DNA of 21,067 nucleotides from a virus: IMG/VR virus record IMGVR_UViG_3300042691_012905, positions 1 through 21,067 of that record, one strand, 5' to 3'. Position 1 is the first letter of the stretch; each line of letters begins with the position of its first letter. Below the pieces are notes generated by a model that saw only the letters and a list, made by a program, of their open reading frames with translations, was not told where the DNA came from and did no database searches. A program made the translations under genes and the position numbers. Positions 1,952 through 14,915 of this stretch are shown here, in pieces.

Positions 1952-2242
1952 ATGGAAACCTACCCACAAAAATTTATTGAGTATCACGCCAAATATCCAA
2001 AGGTTTACGAGTATTACAAAGGAGTAATTGCTCAGCTTATAAACAGAGGATTCAAGAAGTATTCATCCGATGGAGTATTGCACATTGTGAGGTTCACAAA
2101 GCACGATGAAATTAAAAAGGATGGATTTAAGGTAAACAATAACTACACTCCATATTATGCGAGGTTGTACGAAAGTGAACATCCTGAGTTGAAGGGATTT
2201 TTTGCGATGAGAAAAACAAAAGTAAATTCATTTGCAGATTAA
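1952..2242 (+). CDS. Conserved small phage protein of unknown function, 96 aa
   Basis: The ATG at 1952 follows the NinB-like stop by 2 bases (AATTATG). The sequence has an N-terminal helical part (F-I-E-Y-H-A-K-Y-P-K-V-Y-E-Y-Y), then I-N-R-G-F-K-K-Y-S-S-D-G-V-L-H, then V-R-F-T, and then the conserved-looking segment F-K-V-N-N-N-Y-T-P-Y-Y-A-R-L, ending with H-P-E-L-K-G-F-F-A-M-R. From memory, the pattern R-G-F-x-x-Y-S-x-D ... F-K-(I/V)-N-N-N-x-x-x-Y-Y-A-R with a late G-F-F-x-x-R is common in small early proteins of many unrelated tailed phages, usually near NinB or Holliday-junction resolvase genes. Its biochemical role is not known to me. The last codons overlap the -33 element of the promoter proposed for the downstream RNA. 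Confidence 0.8.
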   Translation: METYPQKFIEYHAKYPKVYEYYKGVIAQLINRGFKKYSSDGVLHIVRFTKHDEIKKDGFKVNNNYTPYYARLYESEHPELKGFFAMRKTKVNSFAD

Positions 2243-2262
2243 AAAAATAATCCGTAATCTTG
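2231..2262 (+). promoter_or_regulatory. Predicted Bacteroidota promoter for the structured RNA
   Basis: A TTTG at 2231-2234 is followed by 20 bases and then TAATCTTG at 2255-2262. This is one mismatch from the Bacteroidota -7 consensus TAnnTTTG and has correct spacing (17-23). The -33 box overlaps the last codons of the preceding gene. Transcription should begin near 2268, a short distance before the first helix of the RNA. The single mismatch and the overlap with coding sequence lower confidence. Confidence 0.5.
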
Positions 2263-2267
2263 CAAAA

Positions 2268-2396
2268 TCGTTCTTAAAAATTAGAAGTTATATCATTGAT
2301 TCCGCCAATGATTCATACATAACACAATCGTACCCTCAAGGGGTTGGAAGCCGAGTAATCGGGCGGAACTTTCAGCAACTTGGGGGTATTTTTTTT
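2268..2396 (+). ncRNA. Compact structured RNA with pseudoknot, function unknown
   Basis: This gap between two genes folds into a set of mutually compatible helices. The first hairpin pairs 2292-2298 with 2306-2312 (7 bp, perfect) around loop 2299-2305. Bases 2300-2305 of that loop (UUCCGC) pair perfectly with 2363-2368 (GCGGAA), forming a 6-bp pseudoknot. A long outer stem pairs 2331-2340 with 2379-2388 (10 bp, one G-U). Inside it, 2346-2350 pairs with 2369-2373, and 2351-2354 pairs with 2359-2362 under a GUAA (GNRA) tetraloop. Eight T residues follow the outer stem at 2389-2396. With the promoter at 2231-2262 this would be a free RNA of about 130 nt; alternatively it is a 5' leader element of the gene at 2404. 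It does not match the consensus of riboswitches or ribozymes I know. The 5' end is an estimate. Confidence 0.65.
2331..2396 (+). terminator. Stem plus U8 tract ending the structured RNA
   Basis: The 10-bp stem 2331-2340/2379-2388 is G+C-rich in its middle (CCC against GGG) and is followed directly by eight T residues at 2389-2396, as in an intrinsic terminator. The enclosed loop is long (38 bases) but largely folded by the inner hairpins, so the stem should close readily. Read-through into the small gene at 2404 is possible, because no separate promoter is seen for it. Confidence 0.5.
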
Positions 2397-2403
2397 AAAT
2401 ATA

Positions 2404-2595
2404 ATGAGAGTAATAAATATTTATGTTAACGATGATGCTAAAATAGAAGCAAAAATAGAGTTAACAACTGGTAAAAATTTGATTTTTACAGACGAAGAAT
2501 GTAAAATTAGCGACCATTTAATGTCAATTGATGAATTAGAAGATGCTAATAAAAAACTATCTGAATTAATTAAAATGGTACGCAAATTATTATAA
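2404..2595 (+). CDS. Small hypothetical protein, 63 aa
   Basis: The chosen ATG at 2404 lies 7 bases after the oligo-T tract; an in-frame upstream start at 2380 would lie inside the structured RNA. The product has strand-like N-terminal segments (R-V-I-N-I-Y-V, K-I-E-L-T-T-G-K-N-L-I-F-T), then an acidic turn, and a C-terminal amphipathic helix (residues about 40-63, ending K-M-V-R-K-L-L). No known domain is recognised. It ends 1 base before the replication initiator start, so it is likely co-transcribed with it. Its small size and helix could suit an initiator partner or modulator, but nothing in the sequence proves this. Confidence 0.65.
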   Translation: MRVINIYVNDDAKIEAKIELTTGKNLIFTDEECKISDHLMSIDELEDANKKLSELIKMVRKLL

Positions 2596-2596
2596 A

Positions 2597-3235
2597 ATGG
2601 ATAGTTATACACTCAGCAGAAACTTCTTTAATTGGTGTTTTGAAAATCCTGAAAAGATAAGTCCAAATCATAGTGCAATCTATTTCTTTGCAATTGAACA
2701 TTGTAATCGTTTAGGATGGAGAAACAAATTTGGATTTCCTACTCAAATGGCAATGGATGCAATTGGAATAAAAAAGCATCAAACCTACATTAGATATTTT
2801 AATGATTTAGTTGATTGGGGATTTTTTAATTTAATACAAAAAAGCCAAAATCAGTATAGTTCTAACATAATTAGCTTAATAAGTGATTTGCCAAAAAACG
2901 GCAAAGCACTGGATAAAGCAATCATAAACCATAGGGCAAAGCAAACAGAAACCATAGGGCAAAGCAATAGTAGTATAGATAAACCAATAAACAATATAAC
3001 CAATAAACAAATATACAAGTCATTTTCTGCCTTATCAATTACAATTGAAGAAGTAGAAAAATTAAAACAATTGGGATATACTCAAATTCAAATTGATGAA
3101 ATATTAGAATCAATAGAAAACTACAAAGGCAATACAAAATATAAAAGTTTGTATTTGACTGCAAAGAAATGGTTGAATAAAGAAAGAATTGAAAATCCAC
3201 CACCAACAGAAGTTAAACGCCCAATGGTATATTAA
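2597..3235 (+). CDS. Phage replication initiator (winged-helix, lambda O-like organisation)
   Basis: The product has 212 residues. The N-terminal domain (about 1-95) resembles the winged-helix DNA-binding part of Bacteroidota phage initiators: S-R-N-F-F-N-W-C-F-E-N-P-E-K-I-S-P-N-H, then a helix-turn-helix with G-F-P-T-Q-M-A-M-D-A-I-G-I-K, then L-V-D-W-G-F. A polar linker (about 98-140, rich in K, N, Q and S) follows. The C-terminal domain (about 145-205) contains N-Y-K-G-N-T-K-Y-K-S-L-Y-L-T-A-K-K-W-L, a pattern seen in loader-binding ends of phage O/DnaD-like proteins. It lies directly before the primase-helicase (2-base gap), so it probably recognises the origin and loads that helicase. The linker-coding DNA holds direct repeats that may be the origin itself. 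The family call is fairly secure and the partner role is inferred. Confidence 0.75.
   Translation: MDSYTLSRNFFNWCFENPEKISPNHSAIYFFAIEHCNRLGWRNKFGFPTQMAMDAIGIKKHQTYIRYFNDLVDWGFFNLIQKSQNQYSSNIISLISDLPKNGKALDKAIINHRAKQTETIGQSNSSIDKPINNITNKQIYKSFSALSITIEEVEKLKQLGYTQIQIDEILESIENYKGNTKYKSLYLTAKKWLNKERIENPPPTEVKRPMVY
2900..3010 (+). repeat. Direct repeats inside the initiator gene, candidate replication origin
   Basis: A perfect 19-base repeat, AAACCATAGGGCAAAGCAA, occurs at 2926-2944 and 2949-2967 (23-base period). Its AAAGCA core also occurs at 2903-2908 and 2915-2920, giving four cores with 12-, 23- and 23-base spacing. A second repeat, AACCAATAAACAA, follows at 2982-2994 and 2998-3010 (16-base period) and leads into A+T-rich DNA. 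Both periods are not multiples of three, so the copies encode different peptides. Conservation is therefore at the DNA level. The layout (iterons then A+T-rich DNA within the initiator linker) resembles lambda ori within gene O. Confidence 0.6.
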
Positions 3236-3237
3236 TT

Positions 3238-5073
3238 ATGACAATAGCAGTAATAGAAAAGGAATCAAAGCGTGAATATCTAATTGATATTTCCAAAGGT
3301 GGCGAAAATAAACAGACTTGCCCAGCGTGTTCTCACGAACGTAAAAAGTCAAAAGATAAATGCTTCAGCTACAACGCAACCAAAGAAGTAGGAAGTTGCT
3401 CACATTGTGGTAAGGCATTTTACAAAAAGTTGGACAAAATAGAAAACAACTACCAAAGGATTGAATATAAGCGACCAATTTGGAAAAATGAAACTACTTT
3501 ATCTGAAAAGTTGGTTAAGTGGTTTGAGGGCAGAAAGATTAGTCAAAAAACATTATTAAAGGCAAAGATTACAGAGGGGTTAGAGTGGATGCCACAAACA
3601 AACGGAAACATCAACACCGTACAATTTAACTACTTTAGAGATGGTGAATTGATAAACGTAAAATATCGCACTGGCAACAAACAATTTAAGTTAGCAAAAG
3701 ATGCTGAACTAATATTTTACAACTTGGATGCAGTAAAAGACCAAAAAGAAATAATAATTGTTGAGGGTGAAATTGATTGCTTAACTTTAATTGAATGTGG
3801 GATTGAAAATGTTATTAGCGTTCCAAATGGTGCTACAATTGGCAGAAACAATCTTACTTACTTAGACAATTGCATAGACCTATTTGATGAAGATACAAGG
3901 TTTATATTGGCATTAGATAATGACCAAGCTGGAAATAGTTTAAGAGATGAATTTGCCAGAAGATTAGGGGTTGAAAATTGCTCAAAGGTAGCGTTCAAAG
4001 ATTGCAAAGATGCAAATGAATGCTTGGTTAAGTATGGAATGGATGGAGTATTGGAAAGCATAAACAATAAAATTGAATATCCTTTAGTCGGCATATTTAC
4101 CTCCACAGACTTAAACGAAGAGATAGATAATTACTACAACAACGGATTGCCACAAGGCGAAACAATAGGCTTAGAAACATTTGATGAAAACCTTAAATTT
4201 CATTTAGGATACATCACAACAATTACAGGCATCCCAAATCATGGTAAATCTGAAGTATTAGATTTTATTTGTGCATCGTTAAACATTCGTGCTGGTTGGA
4301 AGTTTGGTTTATTTAGCCCTGAAAACTATCCTTTAGAACTTCACTTTAGCAAGTTTGCTGAGAAATTAATAGGCAAAGCATTTGATGGAAATTACAAAAT
4401 GAATAAAATGGAGTTAGACTTAGCCAAAGATTACTTTTCAAAAAACTTCTTTTTTATAAAACCCGAAAATGATTTTAAACTTGAGGATATTTTGCGGATG
4501 GTAAAAAGTTTAATTAGAAAATACGGAGTAAATGCCTTTGTAATTGATGCTTGGAATAAGTTAGAACACAATGAAGATTCAACACACTATGTTTCAAAAC
4601 AATTGGATATATTGGCAACATTTTGCGAAAGAAATATGGTACATTGTTTTCTTGTTGCTCACCCGACAAAAATAATGAAAGATAAAAAAACGGGATTATT
4701 TGAAGTGCCAAACCTTTACAACATAAATGGATCTGCAAACTTCTTCAATAAAACTCACAACGGATTAACCGTATATCGCAACTATGACTCAAAGAAAACA
4801 GAAATATACATACAAAAAGTAAAGTTTAAACACTGGGGGCAGTCAGGCACAATGTGTTCATTGGGATGGCATTTTATTAATGGCAGATATTATACATTTA
4901 TTCCCGACAATACCAATTGGATATTAGGCGAAAAGAAACAAGTAGAAGCATTTGAACTACCTTCAAGCCCAATAAAGCCCAACGGAGCATTTGACACACC
5001 AATAAACAAAAAAGATAATTGGGACTTTATCCCAAAGAATGAATTTACAGATATTGGCAACGATGCCTTTTAA
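3238..5073 (+). CDS. Bifunctional DNA primase-helicase (T7 gp4/Twinkle-like)
   Basis: The product has 611 residues. A zinc-ribbon lies near the start, with C28-x-x-C31 and C54-x-x-C57. The TOPRIM core follows: I-V-E-G-E-I-D at about 174-180 and the metal-binding D-N-D at 227-229. The helicase part begins near 300, with a Walker A variant G-I-P-N-H-G-K-S at 331-338, Walker B-like V-I-D-A-W-N at 435-440, and the V-A-H-P motif around 473-476. This order (zinc ribbon, TOPRIM, RecA-like hexameric helicase) is that of T7 gp4, which primes lagging-strand synthesis and unwinds the fork. The initiator gene directly upstream probably loads it. No DNA polymerase gene is visible in the window. After the stop there is no gene until 5210, and a new promoter begins the next unit. 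Confidence 0.92.
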   Translation: MTIAVIEKESKREYLIDISKGGENKQTCPACSHERKKSKDKCFSYNATKEVGSCSHCGKAFYKKLDKIENNYQRIEYKRPIWKNETTLSEKLVKWFEGRKISQKTLLKAKITEGLEWMPQTNGNINTVQFNYFRDGELINVKYRTGNKQFKLAKDAELIFYNLDAVKDQKEIIIVEGEIDCLTLIECGIENVISVPNGATIGRNNLTYLDNCIDLFDEDTRFILALDNDQAGNSLRDEFARRLGVENCSKVAFKDCKDANECLVKYGMDGVLESINNKIEYPLVGIFTSTDLNEEIDNYYNNGLPQGETIGLETFDENLKFHLGYITTITGIPNHGKSEVLDFICASLNIRAGWKFGLFSPENYPLELHFSKFAEKLIGKAFDGNYKMNKMELDLAKDYFSKNFFFIKPENDFKLEDILRMVKSLIRKYGVNAFVIDAWNKLEHNEDSTHYVSKQLDILATFCERNMVHCFLVAHPTKIMKDKKTGLFEVPNLYNINGSANFFNKTHNGLTVYRNYDSKKTEIYIQKVKFKHWGQSGTMCSLGWHFINGRYYTFIPDNTNWILGEKKQVEAFELPSSPIKPNGAFDTPINKKDNWDFIPKNEFTDIGNDAF

Positions 5074-12735: not shown

Positions 12736-14915
12736 ATTGGAAGTTTACAATAATTGAAAGTAATTTAGATGAAACGATTATTATTGAGCCTATTGGATGG
12801 GATGGATTAACAATTGGATTAACGAGAAACTTTGAGAATCATGGAATTATTAAGACCATTGAGAATACTGACTTTCAATTTATTGAGGATGCCTATGTAT
12901 TATTAAAGTCAATTTATGATACTACGGGAGCAGATTCAATAGCTTTTTTAAAAGTAGAGTATCAATGTGAATCAGAGGCATATCAGTTGTTAGATACGTT
13001 TAAATTCGATTTTAATACCTATAAGAGAACGTGTGGGGATATGTGTATGATTGAGATTGCTGTAAATGCCAATAGTTGTTTGAATGATTTGATGGTGAGA
13101 ATGTCGCAAGATATAGACTTAGCAACTACAACGGATATAGATGGAAACGAAATAACACCATTATCTGAGGTAGATATTACATTGGGAGGTCAAGATATAG
13201 TTATTAGGAATAGGGCAGTTCCTGACCCAAGTTTAACATATCAATTGTCAATTACATTATCAACAAGAAACTTTGATGCCTTTCCTGCTATTGGTTGGTT
13301 GTATCATTCATTAGCATTAAGAGTTACTGAAATACAAGAAATACCTGCTTTTAATTTTCTCAGCCCAACGGGAGAAACATTTGAATGTGCAACACAACAA
13401 ATGAATGAGCAACCTAATTGGGAAACTGATGAAATTTTAGCTTATACTATTTGGGAAAGAGATTTAGAAAATATTAACTTAACCGAGTTATGTCTTGAAG
13501 GAGGTTATGAATTTAGTTTAGATGTTAACATTAGCGGAACGGTTGTAGTTCAGTCAACACTTGATGCAAGTATTGTGAGTATAGATTATCAATTATATGA
13601 ATTAGACGTTGTTAATAATATAAATTTAATTTATTCAGTTAATATGTTAACTACATCCTATGCAATTCCTGATGATATGACTCCTGTATCAATTCCTTTT
13701 TCTTATGCCAACTATTCACCTCCAAGCTTTGCAAATACAAGAAAGTTATTTGTTGTTTTTGAAACTACCTATGGTACTCCTGATGGAGTAAATGAAGATT
13801 GTAAAAGTATGCAGTTTGATTGGCAATATGATGCAGGTTCTTATGTAGAAATGTTAATAAATACAAATTGCCCTGAAACAACTATAAAAGGGGTAAACTT
13901 AAAAGATACATTTGAATTTTTGCCAACAGCACTTGTAGGAGATTGCTATGATGTACAATGCAATGATGAATGTATGGCTGACCATATTTTAACAAATGGT
14001 TTAAAGCTAAGGAGAAAACCCGATACAAGTAACCTATTTCTTAGTTGGGAAAATCTATTTAGAAACACCTCAAAGATATTTAATTTAGGTTGGGGAATAT
14101 CTGGCAGCGACTTAATAATTGATAAGGCTAAACAGTTCTATCAACAAACAAATACAATATCGTTAGGAGCAGTTGATGAAGTAAAGATTAGCCATGCAAA
14201 AGAGTTTTTATTTGGGAAAGTAAATGTAGGTTATAGCAAGTGGGAATCTGAAGAGTACAATGGACTTGACGAGATGAATACAATGAGAAAGTATTCAAGG
14301 CAAGGCAGTAACTCAGATAAAACACTGGATTTAGTATCACAATTTATTACCGCAGGATATACCATTGAGATAACAAGACGCAAAAGTCCATTTTCAAGCG
14401 ATTGGAGATATGATAGTGATACATTTGTAATAAATATTGATGGCTCAAATGCAGTGCAGGGAGTAACATCTCCGAGCAACATAGTAAGTCCATCAACAAG
14501 ATACAATTACAGACTAACACCAATTAGAAACTTATTAAATTGGTTTAATCGTTTGTGCCTTTATTCACCTCAAGAATTAGTATTTAATTCGTCAAATGGT
14601 AACTTTATTGCAAGTGGTAGAATGACCGGGCAATGTGATTTAGAGGATGCAGCAATAGCCGAAAATGATAACATAGTAACAGCAGATTTTGATGTTAGTG
14701 CAAATGCAGAACCTTATTTTTTGCCAATTATTTATGAATTTTCAATACCTTTGACAATGAATCAATTTATGAATGAAATGTTGGTTGATGTTTATGAAAA
14801 TCTTTATTCATTTGAGTGCAACGACACTACATTTAATGGTTATTTATTAACCGCTACTTATGACCCGAATCAAGGAATGGCAAAGTTTACGCTACTCCAC
14901 GCAATTATGGAATAA
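12732..14915 (+). CDS. Large tail protein following the tape measure (distal tail/baseplate type)
   Basis: The product has 727 residues. The N-terminus M-N-W-K-F-T-I-I-E-S ... I-I-I-E-P-I-G-W-D-G-L and then Y-E-L/F-x-F-x-T-Y-K-R-T-C-G-D-M-C resemble tail proteins that lie just after tape measures in Bacteroidota phages (recognised from memory). The body is beta-rich with many paired Cys residues (C-G-D-M-C, C-N-D-E-C). The C-terminal third (about 480-727) has W-E-S-E-E-Y-N-G-L-D-E-M-N-T-M-R and alternating strands. Phage logic places a distal tail or tail-hub protein here, joining the tube to the tip. No enzymatic motif is visible. It is coupled to the tape measure (ATGA) and to the next tail gene by a 1-base overlap. 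Confidence 0.75.
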   Translation: MNWKFTIIESNLDETIIIEPIGWDGLTIGLTRNFENHGIIKTIENTDFQFIEDAYVLLKSIYDTTGADSIAFLKVEYQCESEAYQLLDTFKFDFNTYKRTCGDMCMIEIAVNANSCLNDLMVRMSQDIDLATTTDIDGNEITPLSEVDITLGGQDIVIRNRAVPDPSLTYQLSITLSTRNFDAFPAIGWLYHSLALRVTEIQEIPAFNFLSPTGETFECATQQMNEQPNWETDEILAYTIWERDLENINLTELCLEGGYEFSLDVNISGTVVVQSTLDASIVSIDYQLYELDVVNNINLIYSVNMLTTSYAIPDDMTPVSIPFSYANYSPPSFANTRKLFVVFETTYGTPDGVNEDCKSMQFDWQYDAGSYVEMLINTNCPETTIKGVNLKDTFEFLPTALVGDCYDVQCNDECMADHILTNGLKLRRKPDTSNLFLSWENLFRNTSKIFNLGWGISGSDLIIDKAKQFYQQTNTISLGAVDEVKISHAKEFLFGKVNVGYSKWESEEYNGLDEMNTMRKYSRQGSNSDKTLDLVSQFITAGYTIEITRRKSPFSSDWRYDSDTFVINIDGSNAVQGVTSPSNIVSPSTRYNYRLTPIRNLLNWFNRLCLYSPQELVFNSSNGNFIASGRMTGQCDLEDAAIAENDNIVTADFDVSANAEPYFLPIIYEFSIPLTMNQFMNEMLVDVYENLYSFECNDTTFNGYLLTATYDPNQGMAKFTLLHAIME

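Follow-up and report, generated by a model that had tools for sequence, protein, structure and literature searches.

The 161-base gap between the gene end at 2242 and the ATG at 2404 of the window, which is the whole 21,067-base virus record analysed here, holds a strongly folded RNA. The earlier note on this DNA had described one structured RNA in a gap; this RNA is an allele within a widespread class of leader RNAs with two kissing hairpins that stand before phage replication operons. The window carries terminase, primase-helicase and NinB genes, and its RNA has every part of the plan of the class: a promoter-like box, a first hairpin (HP1), a second hairpin (HP2) with an exposed strand complementary to the HP1 loop, a T-run and a replication operon behind. 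The RNA class and its placement 5' of replication genes are well supported, and it is probably a new RNA family controlling when the replication genes switch on. For the window RNA, our main reading, to which we give a probability of roughly 0.55, is that of the 5' leader of the replication operon, in which a loop-loop lock tunes terminator read-through. The class is absent from Rfam release 15 and occurs 5' of replication genes in many Flavobacterium, Cellulophaga and Tenacibaculum phages. Few cases of regulation at the RNA level are reported for these groups. Our literature searches found no description of this RNA.

Fold of the RNA and its place in the window

The window RNA had a minimum free energy (MFE) of -40.1 kcal/mol against -24.7 ± 3.3 kcal/mol in 200 dinucleotide shuffles (z -4.67). 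None of the shuffles was as good, which agrees with the unusual degree of order that the earlier note had seen in this gap. A sequence-blind detector gave the RNA as its sole match in the window and no match in shuffles. All five helices of the earlier note were found again (Table 1). They are the 7-bp hairpin 2292-2298/2306-2312, which is now the upper stem of HP1, the six-pair pseudoknot 2300-2305/2363-2368, in which UUCCGC and GCGGAA match without a flaw, the outer stem 2331-2340/2379-2388, which is lengthened by one extra G-U pair (2330-2389), the stem 2351-2354/2359-2362 with its GUAA cap, and an inner stem. The last exists as described but is longer than 2346-2350/2369-2373, having eight pairs. 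Four features had been missed: the 5-bp lower stem of HP1, the T8 run, the upstream promoter-like box and the downstream replication operon.

HP2 looks like an intrinsic terminator because the T8 run follows it directly. A standard terminator scan of the window reported none; its loop limit of 3-8 cannot accommodate HP2. No alternative antiterminator fold was identified.

Table 1. Positions in the window of the RNA, its parts, the predicted promoter and the operon genes.
Feature	Position	Strand	Basis or remark
Predicted Bacteroidota-type promoter, -33 element TTTG	2231..2234	+	sequence; matches consensus TTTG / TAnnTTTG
Predicted promoter, -7 element TAATCTTG	2255..2262	+	1 mismatch to TAnnTTTG; 20 nt past -33 element
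Kissing-hairpin leader RNA, type A	2268..2396	+	fold z -4.67; near-identical copies
HP1	2287..2323	+	lower stem 2287-2291/2319-2323, upper stem 2292-2298/2306-2312, loop 2299-2305; MFE and centroid structure
Loop-loop helix, 5' strand UUCCGC	2300..2305	+	perfect complement of 2363-2368
HP2	2330..2389	+	outer stem 2330-2340/2379-2389, inner stem 2343-2350/2369-2376
Mini-hairpin CCGA-GUAA-UCGG, GNRA loop, top of HP2	2351..2362	+	
Loop-loop helix, 3' strand GCGGAA	2363..2368	+	unpaired strand near top of HP2
T8 run directly 3' of HP2, intrinsic-terminator-like tail	2389..2396	+	sequence
Operon gene 1, 63-aa protein of unknown function	2404..2595	+	ATG 8 nt past T-run
Replisome-organizer-like protein	2597..3235	+	phrog_13246, E 1.5e-4
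DNA primase/helicase	3238..5073	+	phrog_239, E 2e-86; Toprim domain

The consensus of the Bacteroidetes primary sigma factor is TTTG / TAnnTTTG (PMC7366714), and from the match to it at 2231-2234 and 2255-2262 we predict that the RNA would start at about 2268-2272. The TTTG element is retained in relatives that have other upstream genes (e.g. L012, L049), and the -7 element in relatives is TAATCTTG or TAACATTG. Transcripts that begin further upstream may also cover the operon. A promoter-like pattern, TAATCCGTAANNTTGCAAAA, was seen in an unrelated contig as well (L059:7675-7694), with no kissing-hairpin RNA behind it.

The gene for the 63-aa protein is swapped for other small genes in sister phages. 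The next two genes are mosaic. In the replisome-organizer-like gene, the C-terminal third (about 136-212) is 61-78% identical where the N-terminal part differs; the primase-helicases of the window and of L039, L040, L060 and L064 have a differing N-terminal part and a related C-terminal third, and their last 20-30 residues are nearly identical.

Sister RNAs at the same locus

Relatives with primases up to 99% identical have the same promoter, followed by RNAs that differ in sequence but not in plan. A complementary loop pair is present in every sister RNA found at the window locus. Besides the window, type A is present in L049, L047/L040 and L051, where the RNAs are 95-98% identical and the downstream genes differ. 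Two sites vary inside HP2, 2375 and 2383, both from U-G to U-A with the pair kept. The loop-loop helix is invariant across the four near-identical copies, so that its pairing in type A is proposed by analogy with the relatives. The earlier note had suggested that compensating changes should be looked for in related phages. They are present in the loop-loop helix of same-locus and same-context relatives, while the invariant type A copies speak neither way.

The type B RNAs, collected by the HP1 stem alone, have the order HP1 (AGUUGU-loop-ACAACU), GNRA mini-hairpin and HP2. Their HP1 stem is nearly constant and their loops are variable. Ten distinct RNAs were obtained, and in all 10 the entire loop has its exact complement in HP2. 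The seven distinct alleles are CGGCAU/AUGCCG, GGCCAU/AUGGCC, GGGCAU/AUGCCC, GUGCCA/UGGCAC, GUGGAAG/CUUCCAC, GUCGGAG/CUCCGAC and GUAGGAG/CUCCUAC; the pair GUAGGAG/CUCCUAC is found within other stems in type C. The type B mini-hairpin between the kissing hairpins is GGTG-GMAA-CACC (e.g. L028 at about 2978-2992) or, in L002, GCAATA-GCAA-TATTGC, and it shows compensating changes; the window RNA has its GNRA cap inside HP2 instead.

The RNAs are exchanged as cassettes. Type A (L049) and type B (L012) stand behind the same upstream sequence, the downstream gene MSTFDKF is common to L051 (type A) and L061/L063 (type B), and the downstream gene MGIYKTPV is common to L047 (type A) and L076 (type B).

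Isolated phages with the same plan

A direct DNA search in isolated phages recovered nothing homologous to the window RNA, as its 13 Klebsiella matches (32 nt, E 0.1) are due to chance, and the window as a whole had no near match. By primase, the closest isolated phages are those of Flavobacterium, Cellulophaga and Tenacibaculum and the sewage phage PJN03, and we infer the host of the window phage from such relatives. In the Flavobacteriaceae phages examined, the gap 5' of the small gene and the initiation gene carries the same two-hairpin plan: Lillamyvirus, Muminvirus, Elemovirus, Cebadecemvirus, Cellubavirus, Nekkelsvirus and Tenacibaculum phage JQ. The loop pairs are GUGAGACG/CGUCUCAC in lillamy, GUGAGAAG/CUUCUCAC in morran, GUGGAACG/CGUUCCAC in mumin, mymlan and snusmum, GUACGAC/GUCGUAC in Cellulophaga phi10:1 and phi19:1, AUUGGAA/UUCCAAU in Nekkels, GCAUCCUAC/GUAGGAUGC in Tenacibaculum JQ and UGAGAGC/GCUCUCA in Elemovirus. 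PJN03 had no large gap 5' of its primase operon, and inspection by eye of the human-gut contig L112 revealed no such RNA upstream of the operon. A scan of genome contigs for NinB gave two loci only, both irrelevant. Rfam detected a DUF805b RNA (RF02914, 52 bits) between two genes of Flavobacterium phage lillamy9-5 (L101:12781-12815).

Covariation in the type D family

Viral contigs were searched for a lillamy-type HP1 with free loop positions, and 71 loci were obtained. There were 47 with a partner in a second hairpin, and the other 24 were chance matches. Membership demanded the exact complement for seven of the eight loop bases, so the missing wobble intermediates of type D have to be read accordingly, though no unfiltered high-scoring match contradicts their absence. 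A covariance model (R1), built ignoring the loop-loop helix, scored the tested members at 75-121 bits and the 24 chance matches at 27 bits or less. Since R1 separates the two groups, the partner strand is not merely selected for.

Among the 35 distinct type D RNAs, 99.6% of 1011 pair cells were standard pairs, and 15 of the 29 pairs showed two-sided changes. In the loop-loop helix two-sided changes were found in four of eight pairs and one-sided changes in none, and shifting the partner by one column as a control reduced pairing to 35-38%. Counting all types, 17 of 17 cognate loop pairs were complementary over 6-10 nt. The cognate complementarity of representative loops summed to 81, a value that 0 of 100,000 reassortments reached. 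The loop-loop pairing is thus shown by covariation in the relatives. Because this helix preserves compensating changes of natural origin, simple two-base swaps suffice to test the pairing.

Weak R1 matches also fell precisely on the phi10:1 (24.5 bits), JQ (21.0 bits) and L051 (17.3 bits) RNAs. The window scored 17.8 bits (E 3.8) at the exact position of its RNA, below the type D level of at least 75 bits. The RNAs of the window, phi10:1, JQ and L051 share the plan of type D but are of a different sequence family.

Of 38 distinct type D contexts, 35 have a TAnnTTTG box that ends 4-7 nt 5' of HP1 (2% in the background), and in nearly all type D loci a gene starts 14-77 nt past the HP2 loop strand. 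In most loci this next gene is followed by replication-initiation, helicase or primase genes. The T-run is weak or interrupted in some members, e.g. GGGTTTAATCG in L123.

Two further elements were noticed in type D. The linker between HP1 and HP2, AAAATATTATA, is strongly conserved and unpaired in the model; it may be where a protein binds or a tertiary contact forms. A second small hairpin (consensus NGGTATCTTAAAACCN) lies directly 5' of ATGGCAAA, the start of the 'MAKFEL' gene, in L101 (about 14218-14252), many type D loci and phi10:1/phi19:1. Its stem shows C-G/A-T exchanges, and it is possibly a translation control element of this gene.

Proposed mechanism and alternatives

We propose that transcription would begin at the operon's own Bacteroidota-type promoter and that the leader would be a short RNA of about 125 nt. 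HP1 would fold before HP2, the intrinsic-terminator-like hairpin, and the exposed strand near the top of HP2 would then kiss the HP1 loop with 6-10 Watson-Crick pairs. This loop-loop lock would set whether polymerase stops at HP2 or reads through into the replication genes, and a stopped transcript may become a stable small RNA. We infer that the RNA is transcribed, that transcription terminates at HP2 and that the lock acts on read-through. Lillamy- and mumin-type phages are reported to be virulent (PMC7077304), so a lysogeny switch is unlikely.

The stopped RNA may perhaps act in trans as well. As a specificity RNA like CI of P4, c4 of P1 or CopA, released copies would pair with leaders having the same loop and stop those operons, damping replication by dose or excluding related phages. 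This is a tentative reading. It would account for loop alleles that differ between closely related phages although the two strands of each pair remain complementary. In type D, phages with flanks about 86-96% identical (L141, L145, L162, L178) have different alleles. Loop alleles are mostly non-complementary to one another, and phages of a single host strain, Flavobacterium sp. LMO9, carry three. For HP2 of the type B RNA in L028 the CopA model gave 33.9 bits (E 7e-5), which falls short of its gathering score of 60, and the window gave no match to this model. In P4, CI RNA stops the replication operon via two leader sites (PMC4825925). However, the complement here lies within the same molecule, where pairing should far outpace pairing in trans, the c4 model gives no match, and compensated drift could yield such alleles without trans action. 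The differing alleles on LMO9 make cis control and trans exclusion directly distinguishable by experiment.

A wider proposal goes with trans action, since loops that change quickly and yet stay matched are what is expected of an identity tag. The class would then be an undescribed kind of phage RNA whose fast-changing loop pair marks identity and whose released copies shut replication operons of the same tag. We hold this to be doubtful; if true, the tag would mean RNA-based incompatibility or superinfection exclusion in virulent phages.

It is unlikely that the RNA is instead the product of a stand-alone small RNA gene that targets mRNAs of the host or the phage, or a protein, and happens to be retained next to the replication genes, with the loop-loop pairing only stabilising it. 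Its own promoter-like box and terminator-like end would suit such a gene, as would the swapping of type A and B RNAs as cassettes, and the GNRA loops and conserved single strands offer possible binding sites for a partner. But the RNA is found directly 5' of replication genes, always in sense, in all Flavobacteriaceae phage genera examined, a position that a free-standing RNA does not need. Moreover, none of the 38 type D contexts has a promoter-like box within 60 nt 3' of HP2.

It is quite improbable that the RNA is made at a replication origin, as a primer or an origin-activating transcript comparable to ColE1 RNA II: it recurs beside replication-initiation genes in the sense of the operon, but it ends in a terminator-like hairpin and T-run, not in an RNA-DNA hybrid site, and no direct repeats were found in the region. 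That the gap is just a structural 5' UTR and an ordinary terminator whose loops are complementary by chance is hardly credible, as the covariation and permutation results in relatives contradict it, although the 6-nt complement alone is only modestly unlikely in the window (p about 0.03, composition shuffles) and the helix is invariant in type A.

Comparison with known systems

At the gathering threshold, Rfam gave no match for the window or for the RNAs of the relatives (18 loci), and a permissive E-value search with the window gave only unrelated weak matches. The view of the earlier note, a compact structured RNA with a pseudoknot that is unmatched to known families, is supported by these results; no established family of the kind it had proposed to search for explains the RNA in the window or the relatives. 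Known riboswitches and self-cleaving ribozymes were rejected on the same grounds, with no gathering match. In the Pistol ribozyme a hairpin loop pairs with an internal strand of a second helix to give a 6-bp pseudoknot. A Pistol-like ribozyme was rejected because the strand order differs, the pseudoknot strand being on the opposite side of that helix here, and because Rfam gave no match; the loop sequences are not conserved either. A type III toxin-antitoxin RNA (ToxI and kin), with tandem pseudoknotted repeats upstream of an endoribonuclease toxin gene, does not fit either: there are no direct repeats, and downstream are the 63-aa protein and replication genes, with no toxin gene. For the same lack of repeats and toxin genes we set aside a defence-gene reading, and the weak PADLOC match (E 0.005, 15 bits) that the 63-aa protein gave is attributed to chance.

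In CopA of plasmid R1 (RF00042), a terminator stem-loop doubles as a kissing loop in replication control. Unlike CopA, which is antisense to its target, the leader RNAs are sense, lie upstream of the operon and are self-complementary between two loops. IsrK of the Gifsy-1 prophage is a small RNA arising from a partial stop before downstream phage genes, the longer product being an mRNA (PMC4825925). The leader RNAs resemble it as small RNAs from transcripts that would stop before downstream phage genes; they differ from it in that IsrK, whose sequence was compared via Rfam only, is not known to be connected with replication genes or with a loop-loop helix that covaries.

The P4 CI RNA causes premature termination before the replication genes by pairing with the leader (PMC4825925). 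This RNA and c4 of P1 and P7 (RF01695) are alike to the leader RNAs in being short untranslated RNAs from a phage operon leader, before replication genes in P4, and in being complementary to other stretches of the same leader; here the HP1 loop is complementary to the top of HP2 in 17 of 17 pairs. They are unlike in that the c4 covariance model matched neither the window nor the 18 loci of relatives, and in that the terminator-like hairpin itself supplies the complement here, all in a single short RNA, with no processing implied. P4 CI RNA and CopA are functional models of the leader RNA, not families to which it belongs.
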